This document shows, one piece after another, positions 32,068 through 60,146 of a DNA stretch of 64,000 nt. The DNA is taken from the NCBI GenBank assembly GCA_934668765.1, contig CAKUOH010000005.1, positions 1-64,000 of the forward strand, in the 5' to 3' direction. The notes under the pieces were generated by a model. That model worked only from the letters and a program-made list of their open reading frames with translations. It was not told where the DNA came from and made no database searches. How positions within the stretch are numbered: position 1 is the first letter of the stretch; the number at the start of each line of letters is the position of its first letter. The DNA is from an uncultured Helicobacteraceae bacterium. Its GTDB lineage: Bacteria; Campylobacterota; Campylobacteria; Campylobacterales; Helicobacteraceae. The position numbers and the translations under genes were made by a program.

Positions 32068-33408
32068 TTATGTTAATTCCGTATTAAATTTTTCACTATC
32101 AAATCTCACACCCAAATATTGCGCCACTTCTTTTATGTCAATTTCTGCATTGCCAAGACAGCTTGTCGCGCCCGGTGATGGCGTCATATTAAAGGTTAGT
32201 CCTTTTTGCGTTAAGATTTTTTTCTCTCCAAGTTCAAGTTTTTTTGCACCCAAATCAATTACCTGCGGACGCACTTCGCCAAAGCCATTTGCATAAGTTA
32301 AATCGCTAAGTTTTAACGATGGGATAATCTTTCTAGCGTCCTTTATAAAAAGCCGTTTGCCAAGCAGTGGCAACTCAAAGGCGAGATTTCTTAACACATA
32401 GCTACGAATCTCGCTATCACTCAATAAATCAAGTCCGACTTTTAGCGCACCAAGTTTAAAATCAAGCGTTAGCAACTCACCGCTAATATTATTCCAAAAA
32501 TGCCTACCGCGCTCTAATTTTGGCATAGCAAGGGCGGTGGGTCCAAATCTAGTTACGCCCTCCACTGCAATATCTGGGTCGCCGTGAAGCGCGGCAAATG
32601 GGAGCTTTGGATTTTGCACACCATAGACTTTGCCACGCAAGAGTTTGCCCGGCACAAAGTAAAAGCTCCCAGCCACAGGCAAACAGCCCAAATCCTTGCC
32701 ATATCCGCATTTCTGCGCCAAGGGTAGTGAATATGAGCCAGCATTGACAAGCACGAATCGCGCACGAATCCTTTGCTTATCGCTTGAATGAACCATATAT
32801 GTGCCATCTTTTCCGCGATAAATGCCGATTGTGCGAAATTTATTTAGCACTTTATTGTTTGGATTTGCAATTAGTGCGGATTCCACAAAGCTATTACTAA
32901 TAGTCTCAAAATTCATCGCACACCACGACTCTTTATAGCCTGACGCTACGACATTTTCCGCCCTTTCCCCTCCGCTCATTGATTCAATAATCTTTGGTTC
33001 TAGCTCTTTAATTTGCTCTTTTTCAAAAAACTGCAATCCCTCAAAAATGCTCTCAAACTCAGCGTGTCGCTTTTTCATAAACTCGCATTCCTTGTCGCCT
33101 ACGCCGATTGCAAGTTTTTGCATACTAAAAATGCCTTTATTTTGGAGATTATGACGAAGCGCGTAATTTTTGAGTTTATCAGCGGAGATTTTGACTTTGG
33201 CGGCTTTTTGCGCGGTGTAGTTTGTCTCAATCGAGCCATCGTGAATCGTCTGTGAATTTGCCTTTTGGCTAGAGCTAACTTGGGCTAATTTCTTGTTTTT
33301 TTCTAACAGCACGACTTTTTTAATATCTGTGTAAGCACTTGCGACATAAAACGCCGCACAGCCCGAAATCCCACCGCCGATTATTGCTAAATCAAAAGTT
33401 TTTTCCAT
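32068..33408 (-). CDS. mqo: Malate:quinone oxidoreductase
   Basis: The 446-residue FAD enzyme oxidises malate to oxaloacetate and passes electrons to menaquinone at the inner membrane. It has the N-terminal dinucleotide-binding motif [16 protein letters not shown] (about 9-24), [14 protein letters not shown] (about 52-65), a central [18 protein letters not shown] segment and the C-terminal [16 protein letters not shown]. Sequence and length match the Helicobacter Mqo, which replaces malate dehydrogenase. Its start overlaps the end of the ZnuC-like ATPase gene by 17 bp, which puts it in that operon, an unusual partner. Confidence 0.88.
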
Positions 33409-34264
33409 CTCTCAAACCTTTTATAAAATTATTAGAGCTTTTTATATCTCGCCTTAGAATCTCGCAATTTACAAACAAAACGCATTTCGCATATTCTAAG
33501 ACAGAAATATCGTGGCTGATTAAAATTATAGTATGATTAGCATTTATTTGCTTTAATATTTGATAAATTTCTTTTTGTGTTGGCAAATCGATATTGGCAG
33601 TAGGCTCATCAAAAATCAGCAATTTTGGATTCCCGCATAACGCTCTAGCTATCATTACACGCTGTCTTTGCCCACCTGAAAGATTTGAGATTTTGCGATT
33701 TTTTAAATGCGCAATGTCTAATTTTTCCATAATTTTTTGCGCTTGAATCTTATCGGTTTTTGTGATTTTATAGCCAAAGATTTTTCGTTGCAAAAAGCCC
33801 ATCAGCACGACATCAAAAGCCGTTATAGGGAAGTCAGTATTTATACTAGAATCTTGCGAAGTGTAGCCGATAAGTGAATTTTTGTTAAATAAAGTTACAT
33901 TTGGATAAATCACTTCTCCGCTTGTGGGTTTCAAAAGTCCAAGCAAGATTTTAGCAAGTGTGGTTTTGCCTCCGCCATTTGGACCGATTAGTGCGATAAA
34001 ATCGCCATCTTTCACGCTAAAATTGATATTTTTTAACACGAAATCGCGCTCATATTTAAAATAGATATTTTTTAGGTTTAAAATAGTGGGCGATTCGTGT
34101 GGATTTTTAGATTCGCGTGAATCTTGCGCCGAATCATCATTGCTAAATAAACTTCGGCTCTGCCTTGTTTTGCGAGATTCTGCGCTTATCATAGAATCGT
34201 GGCAATCCATCTTAATCGCACTGCTTGTATTTGCAAGATTTGCGCTATTTTGTGTAGATTCCAC
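33392..34264 (-). CDS. znuC: Metal ABC transporter ATP-binding protein (ZnuC-like)
   Basis: The core (about residues 60-290) is an ABC ATPase with Walker [10 protein letters not shown] (about 93-101), signature LSGGQ (about 195), Walker B LLIFDEP and the switch His in ILISHD, most like ZnuC/MntB. The first ~60 residues precede the normal start and are made of repeat words: [14 protein letters not shown] (about 18-31) is the translation of a REP-like unit, and [13 protein letters not shown] follows. The only starts before the core are GTG at 34264 and ATG at about 34210; I take GTG, six bases after the binding-protein stop, but the ribosome site is weak. The cognate permease gene is not adjacent. 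Confidence 0.78.
34168..34209. repeat. REP-like repeat inside the ZnuC-like gene
   Basis: On the plus strand, TTGCGAGATTCTGCGC then ATAGAATCGTGGCAATCC form the same ends as the intergenic REP-like units. Read on the minus strand in the gene's frame it encodes [12 protein letters not shown] near the N-terminus of the ATPase. Confidence 0.65.
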
Positions 34265-34270
34265 GCTTTT

Positions 34271-35362
34271 TTAATGTCCCATTGTTTTTGCTAATTGACT
34301 TAAAAACAAATTCATATTCTCAAGCCAATCAAAAGCTAATGGGTCGGCAGTTTTAAGACTAATCTTTGCTTCTTTGGCAAGGATTTGCGCGTTTTTGCTA
34401 GAAAATTGCGGTTGCGTGAAAATTACCTTAATATTGTGCTTTTTGATTAGCTCTAAAATTTCCTTTGTGTGTGCGATTTTAGCTTCCTTGCCGTCCTTTT
34501 CAATGGCAAATTCTTTAAGTCCTAGTTCATTTGCAATGTAAGAAAACGCAGGGTGATATACCAAAAACGCCCCGCCTTTGTTGCCAAAGACGCTTTTAAA
34601 ATGCGCAAACATTTTGTTAATCTCTTTTTCAAATCGCGCCAAATTTCGCTTATAAATCGCGCAGTTTGGGGCATCAATCTCACATAGATTATCGCTAATC
34701 ACTTTTGCGTGGGCTTTTGAGAGTTTAAATGAAAGCCAAATATGCGGATAGTGGCGATGGATATGTGATTCGCGTTCGTCTTTTAGCGATAAATCGGGGA
34801 TACTTGCCACTCGCTTCGTCAATAGACTATCAGTCTTATTTCCTTGCTCGTGGCGTCCATACCCCGATTTCTCATCTAAAATACTTCCGCGAATTTCGTG
34901 TGGATTGTCGCTAGATTCGCGTGAATCTGAGTTTGATTTGCTTTTAGCTTCGCTTGATTCGTGGCTAGATTCATTAGATTTGCCACTCAAATCGTCAAAA
35001 TCTTTATGAAAATGCGAATCTGCCAAATCCCCATATTCTGCCAAATACGCTTCTAATTCGCCTTTTTGCAAGGGCGCAATGATTTTTAGATTTGGATTTA
35101 CGCCCTCAAATCGCTTTTGCCACGCATTTTCAAATGGCATACCGATAGTGAAATAAATCTGCGATTTGCTTAACTTTTCTAGCTCTTTTATCAATGGCTC
35201 GTAAGTTTCTGGACTCTTGCCTTTTTGCACCATAATATTGACTTCCGCCAAATTTCCTGCAATTTTTTGCACGAAAAATGCCTGTGGAATTATGCTAACG
35301 CTAACACTTACTTTTGCAAACGACACGCTCACCGCTAATAACGCCATTATCAAAATTCTCAT
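34271..35362 (-). CDS. znuA: Periplasmic metal-binding protein of an ABC transporter (ZnuA-like)
   Basis: The 363-residue product has a signal peptide (MRILIMALLAVSVSFA) and the cluster A-I fold that binds Zn2+ or Mn2+. Likely metal ligands are His in RHYPHIWLS (about 208-216) and VYHPAFSYIANELGL (about 272). The variable loop between residues about 118 and 206, normally a His-rich loop, holds a Ser/Glu stretch (SHESSEAKSKSNSDSRESS) and then about 27 residues encoded by an 80 bp palindrome (34791-34870). The ATPase gene follows after six bases. It should deliver metal to a permease that is not encoded nearby. Confidence 0.8.
   Translation of the reverse strand: MRILIMALLAVSVSFAKVSVSVSIIPQAFFVQKIAGNLAEVNIMVQKGKSPETYEPLIKELEKLSKSQIYFTIGMPFENAWQKRFEGVNPNLKIIAPLQKGELEAYLAEYGDLADSHFHKDFDDLSGKSNESSHESSEAKSKSNSDSRESSDNPHEIRGSILDEKSGYGRHEQGNKTDSLLTKRVASIPDLSLKDERESHIHRHYPHIWLSFKLSKAHAKVISDNLCEIDAPNCAIYKRNLARFEKEINKMFAHFKSVFGNKGGAFLVYHPAFSYIANELGLKEFAIEKDGKEAKIAHTKEILELIKKHNIKVIFTQPQFSSKNAQILAKEAKISLKTADPLAFDWLENMNLFLSQLAKTMGH
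34791..34870. repeat. 80 bp palindrome inside the znuA-like gene
   Basis: AAATCGGGG begins and CCCCGATTT ends an 80 bp palindrome lying in the coding frame. GCCAC/GTGGC forms a second pairing block, and the centre is a small hairpin (AGACT and AGTCT on both strands). The central part (minus strand: ACGAGC, GGAAATA, GACT, ATTGACGAAG) resembles the centre of the ~125 bp elements in der, while the outer arms differ. Confidence 0.65.
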
Positions 35363-38748: not shown

Positions 38749-39252
38749 AAAATCTCCTTGTTTATAGAGTATAGTAATTCGGCAATTTTAGCGAAAAGTT
38801 GTTAGATTTTTACAAAAAGCGCGGGTTTGCGTGAATCTAAAAGTATTTTTTTGGATTGCTTCACTTCGTTTGCAATGACAGGGCAAGGCGAATCGTCATT
38901 GCGAGATTTGCGCTTTTGGGGTGCAAGTCGTGGCAATCTACAAATCTATACTCCCCGTCATTGCGAGGCGCGTGAGTGAAACGAACGCAACGAAGCAATC
39001 CAAATCACGCAAATCTAAAAGATAAATAAAATCAATATCCCACAAAAGCGAATCGCTAAATTATTGCATTTAGATTTACCCAAAGTAAGCGATTTGCATA
39101 AGATACACAAAGCCTACTTAATAGATTGCTTTGCGCGAATCTACGATTCGCCTCGCAATGACGATTCGTTAAGATTTACCCACCCCCTTAATCCCCTCCG
39201 CAAGGGAGGGGGAAAGTGTGATGTTACCATCTGCAAGGGAGGGGGAATCAAA
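38749..39252. repeat. Gene-free stretch filled with REP-like and C/G-rich repeats
   Basis: At least four REP-like units lie here: 38853-38882 (GGATTGCTTC...TGCAATGACA), 38900-38938 (GTCATTGCGAGATTTGCGC...GTCGTGGCAATC), 38958-39002 (GTCATTGCGAGGCGCGTGAG...CGAAGCAATCC) and 39122-39163. A C-rich element (CACCCCCTTAATCCCCTCCG, from 39180) and two G-rich partners (GCAAGGGAGGGGG) follow up to 39245. I see no gene; a 70-codon frame at 39064 is repeat-derived. Confidence 0.65.
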
Positions 39253-47280: not shown

Positions 47281-47404
47281 CAATCAAAGTAATAGCGGTG
47301 TGGCTTTGTGCCGTTTTTACGCGAAACAAGCGAAATAGGACTTGTGCGTCCATCAAGTTTTGTGTAAAAATGGACGCGTAAAAAGCATACCCTAAAACAA
47401 ATTG
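47281..47404 (+). repeat. ~125 bp palindromic element, intergenic copy
   Basis: This copy begins CAATCAAAGTA and ends ACAAATTG. Outer arms GGTGTGGCTTT and AAAGCATACCC pair with few mismatches, TTTTTACGCG pairs perfectly with CGCGTAAAAA, and the centre is the hairpin GGAC-TTGTGC-GTCC (47338-47351). Two copies with the same ends lie inside der. It sits just after the stop of the UPF0323 lipoprotein gene, so here it could also act as its terminator. Confidence 0.8.
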
Positions 47405-47411
47405 TATTGCT

Positions 47412-48014
47412 TTATCCGCCTACTGCGTTATTGCGCCTATCATTATTCCCCCCCCCGCCAAAAAATCCACTTCTCCCGCTTGTAGCCCTTGCTCCCGCAC
47501 CCGCGCCACTTCGTGCGTTATTAAAGCTATTTTTACTGCGCTCATAAGCCTGTGGCGATTTATAGCTTGTGCGTTGCTGTGCTTGGTAGTTTTGATTGCT
47601 AAAAAGTTTATTGCCTATCCAGCTACCGATAATCGCCCCCGCAGCACTTGCTAGTATCGCCCCACCTAGCGATAATCCCGTGCCACTAGGATTTGTCAGC
47701 TCCGAAGTTCCCGCGTCAATCGCTTTCTCTTCATCTTTTAGCAATTTATCGATTTCCTCATTTGAAAGCATTCGCTCAGTGCCGTCCTTTGCTTTTAAAA
47801 GCACGCGCGTAGTTTCGCTTGGATATTCCTCTAAAATCTTGTAGCTTCCATCCATCTGCTCTTCTATGATGACAAATGCACCTTTTTTAATGGATTCATT
47901 TTGTGCGCTTTGTGCGTTTTGATTCGCATTATCGCAGCCATTTAATGCCAAAAGCACACTAATCCCAAGTCCGCCCATAAGCCCAAATTCGCCGATTTTT
48001 CGTATTTTTTTCAT
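47412..48014 (-). CDS. UPF0323 family lipoprotein, probably phase variable at its end
   Basis: The 200-residue product has a lipoprotein signal with the lipobox LALNGC (Cys about 27), then an Asn/Gln linker and a conserved region ([38 protein letters not shown]) that I recognise as UPF0323, present in H. pylori and Campylobacter. A Gly-zipper-like hydrophobic segment ([17 protein letters not shown], about 128-144) and a Ser/Arg/Gly-rich tail follow. A G9 tract encodes Gly near residue 187, so slippage would change or cut only the last dozen residues. Function unknown. Confidence 0.82.
47448..47456. repeat. C9/G9 homopolymer near the 3' end of the lipoprotein gene
   Basis: Nine consecutive C on the plus strand read as G9 in the UPF0323 gene. 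In the current frame the product ends [11 protein letters not shown]. One base fewer would give GIMIGAITQ and a stop; one more would stop after two codons. The tract would thus swap C-termini rather than silence the gene. Confidence 0.75.
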
Positions 48015-52868: not shown

Positions 52869-54572
52869 ATGACTTTAAAATTCACATTTTTTTGCAAAAA
52901 TGCAAATATAGATTATTTTTTGGGACTTTTGCAAAAAATAGCACAAAATTTTGGCGTTGAATCTTGCGTAGATTTTGGCACAGAATCGCTAGATTTTTAC
53001 GCAAGTGGCGAAAATTTAGGCGATTTTGCCACTGCACTGACAAATGAAATCCCTTTGTCGCTTTATTTTCGCTTTAAAAATGTGGAAGTTTGCGAAAAAC
53101 CCACGCATTTAAAACCCTTACAGAACGCCCAATCTAGCGAAAATATTTTAAGCGTGAGTGAAATAAATGCGCGTAAATTTTTGCAAGATACCGCGCTTAA
53201 AGATAGATTGCAAGATTTGTGCGATCGCCTTAAAAATAGGCGCGAAATTGCGCTAAATACAAGCAAAGGCAAAATCGTGCTTTTTACACAAAAAAGCGAT
53301 TCGCAAAAGCACGATGATTTGCGCGATTTGCAAGGCGATTCGCAAAAGCACGATTCACAAGACAATGATTTTGATTTTATTTTGGCAAATGATATTTCTA
53401 CGCTAAATCTCTACACTCGCGCATCACAGGATGAAATCAATGCTTTGGCGACTTTTGAAAAACCGCTTATTAGATTATCAATTAAGGAAGTTTTTGTCAA
53501 AGAAGTGGGCGCAAAAAACGCGCTTTTTATTTTGCCCTTTGATATAGATTTTCGTTTTATTTTTTCACTTTTGGAAGTGCCGTTTTTATTTGCAAAACGC
53601 ACGGATTCTACGGATAATTTTTTTGAAATTGTTGTGGGACAAAGGGGTTATTTTTTGGAGAAAAAATTTTTAGATTCACGCGAATCAAAAATTTCAAATT
53701 TATCGCAATTTTTGGATTTAAACTTTGCGTCTTTGTGCGAAGCGCGAAGCGATGCAAAGCAATCCGCAGGATTTGTGAGCAAAGCGAAACAATCATCTAT
53801 AAAAGTGGATTGCCACGATTCCACGCAAAGCGTGGAATCTCGCAATGACAAAAATCTTTTTATCGCCTACATTAGCACGGCAAATCCCACGCTTTTGGCA
53901 AATTTAGGCGATAAAATACCACACATTAAAATCAATTTTGACAAAAATCCCAAAAATATTTTGGCAAAAATCTCAACGCTAGAAAATGGAGATAAACTCA
54001 TCGCAAATTTTAAGCGCGAGTTTGGGGAGCGATATGAAGCGATTCAAGCATTAAATTCCGCGCCACAAATAAGCGAAAATATTACCGATATTTTTGAATG
54101 TGCCGCGATGATTTTGGGCGCGTCCAAAAGCGAATCCACAAACGAATCTCAAAGCAAATGCCAAAGCAAATCCACAAATAAATCTCAAAATAAACGCTTC
54201 ATTTTTCAACTAGCACAATCCTGTCTGCGTGATATTAGTCCAAAAGTGGATTTTAAAAATATCAAAATTGACGATTCGCTCCACTATGATGCGAATCTAA
54301 CGATTCGCTCCATTATTAGCTTTACACTTGCAGGGACGGAGCGCGAAATTATCGCTTATGGATTGCTAGAATCTTTGGTGGATTATTTGGTGCTTATTTT
54401 TAGGGACGCGCAGAATAAAAATTACATTAAAAGCATAGGAATTATTGGCGATTTATTCGCAAATAAGATATTTTTTGATAAAATCACTAAGAAAATTCCC
54501 GCAAATTTTGATTTGATATTGCCTAAATATTTGGATTTTAAAAATTGCGAAAATATCGATAGTGAGGGGTAA
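52869..54572 (+). CDS. hydE: Hydrogenase operon protein HydE
   Basis: The 567-residue product lies five bases after hydD. In H. pylori the gene at this place, hydE, is needed for hydrogenase activity; the present protein is assigned mainly by position. Its C-terminal part (about 460-567) has ISFTLAGTEREIIAYGLLES and resembles HypF/carbamoyl-transfer-associated Kae1-like sequence only faintly. It carries low-complexity inserts: SDSQKHDDLRDLQGDSQKHD (about 142-161), a REP-like repeat translated as KVDCHDSTQSVESRNDK (about 312-328) and SESTNESQSKCQSKSTNKSQ (about 420-440). These lie between conserved parts and probably loop out. Confidence 0.75.
   Translation: MTLKFTFFCKNANIDYFLGLLQKIAQNFGVESCVDFGTESLDFYASGENLGDFATALTNEIPLSLYFRFKNVEVCEKPTHLKPLQNAQSSENILSVSEINARKFLQDTALKDRLQDLCDRLKNRREIALNTSKGKIVLFTQKSDSQKHDDLRDLQGDSQKHDSQDNDFDFILANDISTLNLYTRASQDEINALATFEKPLIRLSIKEVFVKEVGAKNALFILPFDIDFRFIFSLLEVPFLFAKRTDSTDNFFEIVVGQRGYFLEKKFLDSRESKISNLSQFLDLNFASLCEARSDAKQSAGFVSKAKQSSIKVDCHDSTQSVESRNDKNLFIAYISTANPTLLANLGDKIPHIKINFDKNPKNILAKISTLENGDKLIANFKREFGERYEAIQALNSAPQISENITDIFECAAMILGASKSESTNESQSKCQSKSTNKSQNKRFIFQLAQSCLRDISPKVDFKNIKIDDSLHYDANLTIRSIISFTLAGTEREIIAYGLLESLVDYLVLIFRDAQNKNYIKSIGIIGDLFANKIFFDKITKKIPANFDLILPKYLDFKNCENIDSEG
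53736..53849. repeat. REP-like repeat inside hydE
   Basis: A full unit GGATTGCCACGATTCCACGC...GCGTGGAATCTCGCAATGAC lies at 53807-53849 with perfect inner arms (GATTCCACGC and GCGTGGAATC around AAA). A degenerate unit (GTGCGAAGCGCGAAGCGATG, then CAAAGCAATCC) lies at 53752-53795. Both are in the open frame. Confidence 0.75.
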
Positions 54573-58556: not shown

Positions 58557-60146
58557 TCACTTCGCCACTCCGCCTTTTTCGCGTCCTTTGGTTAAAATCA
58601 CAATCGGCACTCCGCTAAAATCAAAATTTGCACGAAAATAATTCACCAAATACCGCTTGTAGCTAAAATGCAAGGCGCGTGGGCGATTCATCGAAAGCAT
58701 TATCGTAGGCGGGGCGCAATCCACCTGTGTGGCGTAATAAACTTTGATAATCTTGCCTTTGTCGCTTGGAATGGGGTGCTTTTGCGTGGCAATTTTAAGG
58801 TGGCTATTTAGCTCGGCAGTAGCGATTCGGCGGTTAAAATTCTCCCACACACGCAAAATCATTTCCTTAATCTCATCAATGTGTCGCATTTTTAGCGCAC
58901 TTATGGTAAGAATGGGCGCGTAAGCTAGGTAGGCAAATTTGCGCCGTATTTGCGTTTCAATCGCCTTAAAATCCGCACATTTAATATCCCATTTATTTAG
59001 CAAAATGATAATGCCTAAATTGTATTTTTGGCTTAAACCGCTGATTTTCTCATCTAGCTCGACAAAATCCTGCGATGAATCAAGCACCAAAAGCACGATA
59101 TTGCTTTGCTCTAAAATATTTTTTGTCCTAATGAGTGCAAATTTTTCAATGCCCTCGATTTTAGAAGCACGGCGGATTCCAGCAGTATCTACGAATCGCA
59201 AAATCTTACCTTTATAGGCGATTTCATCGCTCACAGGGTCGATAGTCGTGCCTTCTACTTCGCTAACCAAAGAGCGATTTTTGTTTAAAAGGGCGTTTAG
59301 AATGGAGGATTTGCCGACATTGACGCGCCCTATGATGCCGATATTTATGGTGGCAGATTCGTCTTGTGTGCAATTTGTTCTGGGGTATTCATTTGCATTG
59401 TTTTGATACGAAACTTCGCTCAATGGACGCCCAAGTCCTATTTTCGCTCGTTCCGTATCAAAACAATGCAAAGCAACACCGCCATTACTTCGATTGTTTG
59501 ATTGTGAATTTTGCGTTTCGTTAGATTCTGCGTTTGCAGAATCTACAATCGAAGTATTTGCGGTATGGCTTTGCGCCGTTTTCGCGTGAAACAAGTGAGA
59601 TAGAACTAATGGTTCATCGAACGCAGTTTTATGCGGAAACGGCGCAAATTGCATACCCAAAGACAAATTGTCCGCTAAAAAGTCTTTTAATTGTTTCAAC
59701 CCACGATTATGCAAACTCGAAATAAAAAACACATTTTTTGCGCCAAATGCGCCATATTCCCATCGCTCAACTTTTTGAATATCTGTTTTATTGACGATTA
59801 GCACTGCATTTTTTAGGGAGCGAAAAAAGCGCAAATCTTCATCGATTATGCCCTGTTCCGCGCTAATCACATATAAAATCAAATCGCCTTCGTTTATAAA
59901 ATCAAATATAATTTTTTTGACATTTTTAAAAATGCCATCTGCCTTTTTCATTAGTCCTGCGGTATCGCAGAGATTTGCATAAAAAATGCGCCCATTATTT
60001 TCTAGCTCCAAAGGGCGGATATTTATATCACGCGTAGTGCCTTCTTTGTCGCTTGTGATGGCGATTTTGTCTTTTAGTAGACGATTAAAAAGCGATGATT
60101 TGCCAACATTTGGTTTGCCTAAAATGATGATTTTTTGCTTTGTCAT
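58557..60146 (-). CDS. der: Ribosome-assembly GTPase Der (EngA) with a repeat-coded linker insert
   Basis: Der has two GTPase domains and helps assemble the 50S subunit. The first has GKPNVGKSS (about 9-17), TTRD and NKTD (about 119); the second has GRVNVGKSS (about 275-283), GTTIDPV, DTAG and NKWD (about 392), followed by the KH-like domain to residue 529. Der is usually about 440-465 residues. The extra length lies between the domains (about 159-260): two copies of a ~125 bp palindromic element in opposite directions, read in frame as segments such as FDEPLVLSHLFHAKTAQSHT and GGVALHCFDTERAKIGLGRP, plus an Asn/Ser stretch. The catalytic parts look intact. Confidence 0.94.
   Translation of the reverse strand: MTKQKIIILGKPNVGKSSLFNRLLKDKIAITSDKEGTTRDINIRPLELENNGRIFYANLCDTAGLMKKADGIFKNVKKIIFDFINEGDLILYVISAEQGIIDEDLRFFRSLKNAVLIVNKTDIQKVERWEYGAFGAKNVFFISSLHNRGLKQLKDFLADNLSLGMQFAPFPHKTAFDEPLVLSHLFHAKTAQSHTANTSIVDSANAESNETQNSQSNNRSNGGVALHCFDTERAKIGLGRPLSEVSYQNNANEYPRTNCTQDESATINIGIIGRVNVGKSSILNALLNKNRSLVSEVEGTTIDPVSDEIAYKGKILRFVDTAGIRRASKIEGIEKFALIRTKNILEQSNIVLLVLDSSQDFVELDEKISGLSQKYNLGIIILLNKWDIKCADFKAIETQIRRKFAYLAYAPILTISALKMRHIDEIKEMILRVWENFNRRIATAELNSHLKIATQKHPIPSDKGKIIKVYYATQVDCAPPTIMLSMNRPRALHFSYKRYLVNYFRANFDFSGVPIVILTKGREKGGVAK
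59371..59496 (-). repeat. ~125 bp palindromic element, first copy inside der
   Basis: Read on the minus strand this 126 bp copy starts CAATCGAAGTAATGGCGGTG and ends CCAGAACAAATTG. The arms (TTTGCATTGTTTTGATACG and CGTATCAAAACAATGCAAA) pair perfectly over 19 bases, and the centre is GGAC-TTGGGC-GTCC. It is read in der's own frame as residues about 217-258. Confidence 0.85.
59546..59670 (+). repeat. ~125 bp palindromic element, second copy inside der
   Basis: Read on the plus strand this 125 bp copy starts CAATCGAAGTATTTGCGGTA and ends AAAGACAAATTG. Arms TTTGCGCCGTTTTCGC and GCGGAAACGGCGCAAA pair with one G-T exception, and the centre is GAAC-TAATG-GTTC. It lies antisense to der and is read in the der frame as residues about 159-200. 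It is opposite in direction to the other der copy, 49 bp away. Confidence 0.85.

Follow-up and report, generated by a model that had tools for sequence, protein, structure and literature searches.

The window, by which we mean the whole 64,000-nucleotide stretch of Helicobacteraceae DNA analyzed here, carries der (58557–60146, minus strand, 529 codons), the gene of a ribosome biogenesis protein with two GTPase domains. The linker between these domains holds two copies of a palindromic element. The copy der1 (126 bp, 59371–59496, minus strand; core 59406–59458) lies in the sense orientation, and the copy der2 (125 bp, 59546–59670, plus strand; core 59584–59634) lies antisense to der. A third copy (124 bp, 47281–47404, plus strand), in which part of the 3' core is missing, lies between genes and adjoins the 3' end of an opposite-strand ORF (47412–48014, minus strand), the stop codon of which lies within a few bases of the copy's right end. 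The preliminary description had reported three copies at these positions, of similar length and with common ends, and all of this holds: the aligned lengths are 126, 125, and 124 bases, and the common ends are CAATCRAAGTA... and ...ACAAATTG. With up to 3 mismatches, the right-end pattern occurs at exactly these three places in the window, whereas 100 shuffles contain 0.07 matches on average and never more than 1.

As had also been proposed, the arms of the three copies differ in sequence and remain complementary, with RNA fold energies of −56.8, −57.3, and −39.1 kcal/mol. The long hairpin is the best RNA fold of each copy; when DNA parameters are used, the third copy adopts another fold. Both der hairpins are recovered by an inverted-repeat search. 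The hairpin tip carries a common core, consisting of RAACRAGYGAAATARGAC, a short loop, and GTYCATYGANCGAAGTT, and the central hairpin varies in step, being GGAC/GTCC in der1 and the intergenic copy and GAAC/GTTC in der2, in agreement with the earlier reading.

A loose core pattern searched over the window matches 34814–34848 on the minus strand and locates a fourth, more diverged copy (34770–34896, minus strand; core 34806–34854). This copy is in frame and in the sense orientation within a znuA-like ORF (34271–35362, minus strand) encoding a zinc-binding protein, residues 20–358 of which match ZnuA (PF01297) on 261 profile positions. Its arms are wholly different from those of the der copies, and its core and ends (GAAGTA..., ...AAAGACGAA) are alike. 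For convenience, the der and intergenic form is named A, and the znuA form is named B.

Three covariance models connect the two forms, all with E-values that are rough owing to short calibration. The first (R1) is built from six B copies only, because the 5' arm was misplaced when MAFFT aligned cores of both forms together. The second (R2) derives from 105 matches, 99 of 100 fetched loci being used for the alignment (L206 is omitted), and the third (R3) is a full-length model trained without der1 and der2. R1, which likewise contains no der copy, recovers both der copies in the window with 35.1 and 30.8 bits. The scores of der1 and der2, which are absent from both training sets, are 32.7 and 35.6 bits with R2 and 44.9 bits (E 5.3e-8) and 55.0 bits (E 2.2e-10) with R3. 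The fourth copy scores 74.4 bits with R1 and 113.3 bits with R3, both of which include it in training, and 67.3 bits with R2, which does not. The intergenic copy scores weakly (R3, 19.0 bits, E 0.069) and has both ends in common with der1 and der2. The link between A and B rests on core, ends, and model score, although the intergenic copy reaches only E 0.07.

Other repeats are also present in the window. A second, shorter dispersed repeat (GATTGCCACGATTC...GAATCTCGCAATGAC-like) is found at 52869–54572 (plus strand) and 33392–34264 (minus strand); it is read in frame as KVDCHDSTQSVESRND-like peptides, and a like peptide occurs in the der protein P0014. Two long inverted repeats at 38850–39177, one with CATTGCGAGG arms, are probably another dispersed repeat pair.

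The frame of der stays open through both copies, which add about 84 residues, so that the linker between the GTPase domains is lengthened, as the preliminary description had stated. The nearest named homologs of this der are from Helicobacter species. In an alignment of 29 der proteins (A2), the GTPase domains align throughout and the linker varies, from short (P0024–P0026, proteins of 443–447 residues) to about 100 residues or more; the proteins with long linkers include those of the window (529 residues), P0017 (549), and P0011 (557). The inserts of the metagenomic proteins described next are read from their peptides, and at this level they differ in content. The der1 peptide is kept in P0001, P0002, P0003, P0007, and P0008 (the five of P0001–P0008 that were aligned), in which the der2 insert has a different interior and similar ends. 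In P0009, the der2 peptide is kept and der1 differs. The peptide of P0010 corresponds to a der2-like element read in sense; in P0011 and P0015, a znuA-type (B) peptide is found at the same place. The orthologs thus have no common linker, and the alternative that the insert is a single old protein segment is refuted; judged from these proteins, the linker is no old fixed segment. In an AlphaFold model of the window's der, which has low overall confidence (mean pLDDT 63.8, 29 sequences), residues 165–263, comprising both inserts, lack secondary structure, with pLDDT near 25. The linker carrying the inserts is accordingly predicted to be flexible and unstructured, and the inserts are probably neutral passengers.

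The family is larger than first noted, being scattered in many Helicobacter relatives and in some other Campylobacterales. Among 121 Helicobacteraceae genomes, the B-core pattern occurs in 4, with 7 matches in one of them, and a reversed-pattern control occurs in none. R1 finds matches in 21 of the 121 genomes at E ≤ 0.1, and R2 finds matches in 23 at E ≤ 1e-3, the other 98 having no R2 match at that threshold. The R2 matches number at least 50 in genome G058, 33 in G055, and 24 in G054. G058 is Helicobacter canis: its IspDF protein is 100% identical over 99% to P0123, a protein named as from H. canis. The concern that no further copies might exist is answered by the covariance-model searches, which find many in related genomes in addition to the fourth in the window. 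In sampled Campylobacterales, with the best 15 candidates per genome scored, R2 finds the element in 15 of 398 genomes, 11 of which are outside the 121 Helicobacteraceae.

Sequences from 6 of these 11 genomes were inspected. The near-identical copies L209–L211 retain every helix and loop in order (GTTGCGCA opposite AAAGCTC, for example), and L213 retains most of this arrangement (L209 and L213 are in the training set of R3). L207 matches only the inner part of R3, with 43.2 bits. In L212 (1465–1585, minus strand), which is from a Campylobacterales genome outside the 121 Helicobacteraceae and is also in the R3 training set, about 73 bases form an almost perfect hairpin, and the core loops are partly lost.

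The A-type left-end pattern has no match in the 121 Helicobacteraceae genomes, and one A-like copy is found in G115 (L190, R3 E 0.011), beside other copies. The exact left-end pattern has no match in genome_contigs or viral_contigs, the core pattern has none in viral_contigs, and the element as query gives only two matches against plasmids, which is chance level. With Rfam 15, the window yields only two tRNAs at gathering scores, leaving the element unmatched, and the loci L070, L075, and L068 yield two matches at E ≤ 1, far below the gathering score and away from the element.

The fold is a long hairpin, the paired segments of which are split by small conserved internal loops: tandem G–A mismatches, AA/GAA and GCA/AA loops, and one bulged A. 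Genomes tend toward their own stem variants, some present as identical or near-identical copies, and the core loops are common across the order. The terminal sequence is not conserved between genomes; only the pairing of the ends is. Two copies in G055 (L148 and L155) have tandem expansions of a 10-base unit, GTTTGCAAGG, in the left arm, the number of units varying between copies.

To quantify the covariation, we use two alignments. Alignment A9 contains 46 of a set of 57 copies, 11 that are partial, chimeric, or A-like being omitted before counting. The set of 57 had itself been reduced by removing near-identical copies, every A-type copy of the window, and a list of named copies that included most of those in G055 and some disrupted ones; L147 and L152 of G055 were retained. 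For A9, RNAalifold gives 32 pairs, which exclude the outermost stem, and 30 of the 32 are changed on both sides. Of 1,471 cells, 94.9% pair, compared with 71.0% in shuffled alignments and 38–45% in controls slid by 1–3 columns; doubly changed cells number 332, compared with 97.0 in shuffles, and none of 500 shuffles reaches any of five observed measures. In the core alignment A8 (97 distinct copies), 95.2% of cells are paired, 14 of 15 pairs have double changes, and doubly changed cells number 256, compared with 75.3 in shuffles. Part of the excess is built in, as the structure is derived from the same alignment and A8 is fitted to the model, but an excess of this size, together with the slid controls, is unlikely to be due to chance. 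The preliminary description had taken covariation as a sign of selection on structure; with its three copies alone the argument is weak, and with 46 copies it is strong. All copies belong to one structured family.

The wobble pairs bear on which strand folds. G–U and U–G cells number 83 in A9, compared with 22 A–C and C–A cells (61 compared with 17 without column 25), and G–U cells number 31 in A8, compared with 14 A–C cells, a difference to be read with the caveat that RNAalifold counts G–U as a pair. Because G–U outnumbers A–C in both alignments, the comparison points to the forward strand as the strand that folds. Within the A8 core, the mean conservation is 0.88 for the 14 loop columns and 0.78 for the 30 paired columns, a comparison that is biased in that the copies were selected by this core.

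Of 109 places, made up of 105 model matches and the 4 copies in the window, 53 are flanked on each side by at least 40 codons of an open frame. Outside the window, 50 of 105 places are intragenic, with 33 copies in the sense and 17 in the antisense orientation. Thirty of these 50 intragenic ORFs were scanned against NCBIfam, and 25 of them have a family match at E ≤ 1e-10, in some cases with a score under the curated cut-off. The hosts so identified are ObgE, PurF, AlaS, LigA, and GDP-fucose synthase in G047; IlvD in G082; IspDF, ThiE, MutS2, CysQ, a tRNA nucleotidyltransferase-like protein, and a P-type ATPase in G058; and carboxynorspermidine synthase in both G047 and G055. GuaA and a DNA methylase are further hosts according to sequence and Pfam, by which an assignment of the VLCAVSGGVDSS host as MnmA is rejected in favor of GuaA. 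In one H. canis ORF (L121, 551–1810, minus strand), two transporter subunits of the small-multidrug-resistance type are fused, and the long linker between them holds the element.

Related hosts differ in whether, where, and how they carry a copy. One linker can receive copies repeatedly: in carboxynorspermidine synthase, the linker from SSKARYWV to the next conserved block is occupied in both G065 and G055, by a sense copy in the former and by an antisense copy in the latter, and the copy of G047 occupies the linker that follows. In a thiE-like ORF, G058 carries a sense copy at a site where G054 has none; at a second site, an antisense copy is present in G054 and another linker sequence in G058. 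In IspDF of H. canis and close relatives, P0125 has a clean copy, P0123 has a copy with a small nested insert, P0122 and P0124 have extra modules, and P0131 has no copy. The nested insert, in P0123 and L114, is an in-frame insertion of 27 bases (9 residues) in the left arm of the element and is absent in P0125; some further copies, L125 and L127 among them, have pieces containing CTTCGCT in place of the left arm. Vertical descent may account for some copies, since a copy precedes the same part of GuaA in five genomes. In L200 (110–2101, minus strand), and also in L203, L194, and L204, a Tag (DNA-3-methyladenine glycosylase) domain lies upstream of the ATP-pyrophosphatase part of GuaA in the same open frame, adjoining the element; the domains are assigned by Pfam on L200.

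Reading-frame compatibility tracks the location of the copies. In G055, 14 of 20 copies are without any open frame and one of 20 is intragenic. The corresponding numbers are 2 and 24 of 45 copies in G058, and none and all of 8 copies in G047.

Copies outside genes have a preferred orientation. At 30 of 53 non-intragenic places, an opposite-strand ORF stops near the right end of the element, which therefore faces the gene in antisense; the mirror arrangement, with a gene 3' end on the left in sense, is found at 6 of 53, while 4 places have both and 21 have neither. These counts consider ORFs of at least 100 codons with a stop no more than 30 nt inside or 100 nt outside the element end, and take in 107 of the 109 places, identical ones once. 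The intergenic copy of the window, with its gene 3' end at the right, has the antisense-facing arrangement. Intergenic placement is thus non-random, and the status of neutral passenger does not by itself explain it; the facing may result from targeting or from selection. Downstream of the hairpin, runs of at least five U show no enrichment (6 of 30 compared with 14 of 74, in a test that groups places by locus name and misassigns a few of them), lending no support to a function as intrinsic terminator. No replication-strand bias is apparent from hit coordinates inspected by eye, with the contig start assumed to be near the origin.

We infer from the distribution that the element is mobile. At the outermost helix, no target duplication is seen: a flank repeat of at least 3 bp is present in 3 of 40 copies, compared with 1.6 expected, with the true ends of the element uncertain in that the flanks of H. 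canis copies are themselves repetitive. Among 34 genomes, Y1_Tnp is present in two, G119 (a carrier with 3 matches) and G069 (no match), and is absent from the seven top carriers (G058, G055, G054, G047, G115, G056, and G093), a distribution that does not fit a Y1 transposase of the REP/RAYT type as the mobilizer. RVT_1 is present in five of the 34 genomes, namely 4 of 16 carriers (G058, G054, G115, and G093) and 1 of 18 non-carriers (G072), and is absent from G055 (33 matches) and G047 (8 matches). A resident reverse transcriptase as the mobilizer does not fit this distribution, although RVT_1 is still weakly associated with carriage of the element.

The best-known examples of in-frame palindromic elements are those of Rickettsia and Wolbachia. 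The accessible parts of three articles describe the Rickettsia elements (RPEs) as palindromes of 105–146 bp that form long stem-loops, occur between genes and in frame in conserved genes, and number several per genome, and also describe WPE-like in-frame palindromes in Wolbachia genes (PMC2229807, PMC10969869, PMC4224334). The likeness to RPEs drawn in the preliminary description is borne out, as in-frame insertion in unrelated genes is described there as well, in the sections available (PMC2229807). Both are palindromic repeats of about 100–150 bp in several copies, tolerated in frame in conserved genes, the host proteins here being known from sequence. The present family differs in belonging to another bacterial group, in having one structural core across an order with stems rewritten by covariation, and in its antisense-facing bias near gene 3' ends; the likeness is one of description.

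According to the accessible text of PMC2229807, ERIC/IRU and Correia/NEMIS are repeats of 107–155 bp with stem-loop transcripts and in-frame fusions, and have terminal inverted repeats, target duplications, and TA at their ends. In the present family, by contrast, the terminal sequence varies between genomes and no duplication is seen. The same text states that the open 107 bp form of Correia is intragenic and the stop-containing 155 bp form almost only intergenic (PMC2229807), a split that, so far as described there, resembles that between the H. canis and G055 types. REP/RAYT and IS200/IS605 systems are similar in having dispersed hairpin DNA, but REPs are only 20–40 bp according to the part of PMC3733652 available, so that the present element is about three times longer, and the top carriers lack a Y1 transposase. 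The protein-coding palindromes inserted in genes of Methanocaldococcus jannaschii, cited in the accessible part of PMC2996958, are comparable by description only and are archaeal. In the portions available, in-frame palindromes are thus described or cited for Rickettsia, Wolbachia, enterobacteria, Neisseria, and M. jannaschii (PMC2229807, PMC10969869, PMC4224334, PMC2996958). In those portions, Helicobacter is not mentioned in PMC2229807 or PMC10969869, appears in PMC4224334 only in a reference, and is named in PMC2996958 for a different, tandem repeat. By titles and the beginnings of abstracts, in a body of literature that mostly excludes subscription journals, no report of such elements in Helicobacter or Campylobacter is found.

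The reading that best accounts for the data, to which we assign a probability of about 0.7, is that the copies represent a selfish palindromic element that is non-autonomous, about 120 bp long, and similar in kind to the RPEs, without a claim of kinship. The stems covary, the core loops are largely conserved, in-frame copies occur in both orientations together with intergenic ones, and presence differs between close relatives. The folded single strand would be the form recognized by whatever moves or replicates the element. Stems would then be free to drift as long as they pair, loops would have to be kept, and each lineage would expand its own stem variants. Copies without stop codons could survive in protein linkers, and stop-containing variants could survive between genes. 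Stem variants particular to each genome and loops common to the order are to be expected if the element spreads as a folded-strand unit read by its loops and is otherwise a passenger.

The size, terminal complementarity, and dispersal fit a MITE that arose by deletion within a conventional insertion sequence and depends on the transposase of that sequence for movement, as bacterial MITEs are characterized in the available sections of PMC2229807 and PMC10969869. Such an origin is unlikely given the lack of a seen target duplication, ends that are conserved between genomes in pairing and not in sequence, and the absence from the seven top carriers of a Y1 transposase, the only transposase type checked. 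A cellular RNA device is a rather improbable explanation. In that case, the intergenic copies would act in 3' UTRs on stability, processing, or termination, and the in-gene copies would be by-products. Conservation at the level of structure and the facing bias, which the intergenic copy of the window shares, speak for a device of this kind. However, the transcript of the adjoining gene would bear the complement of the strand that has the kept loops and the G–U pairs, U-runs are not enriched, 98 of the 121 family genomes lack a match, and open frames contain roughly half of the places examined, with the element in either orientation.

Correction of quasi-palindromes by template switching is established, and arm-to-arm copying of this type in replication would keep the arms complementary without selection. 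The almost perfect arms of der1 fit this, as does L212, with its nearly perfect length and partly lost loops. Yet template switching should erase internal mismatches, and the same asymmetric loops persist in most copies examined; G–U is also commoner than A–C. We consider it very improbable as the source of the covariation.

A broader form of the selfish-element reading is speculative, and we hold it to be doubtful: the family might be a counterpart of eukaryotic SINEs, in which the folded strand, as RNA or single-stranded DNA, is the heritable unit. It would be recognized by its internal loops, have free-running stems, extend across the order, and colonize gene interiors and 3' ends facing the preferred way, by a mobilizing activity not yet described.

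To our knowledge, the way in which in-frame palindromic elements move is an open question. The present family occurs in Helicobacter species, H. canis among them, with tens of copies, and is diverse enough for the fold to be read from covariation. Since H. canis can be cultured, it becomes possible to test how the element moves and what its inserts cost essential enzymes. The copies also call for caution in comparing proteins, as linkers in some Helicobacter proteins are derived from the element rather than ancestral.
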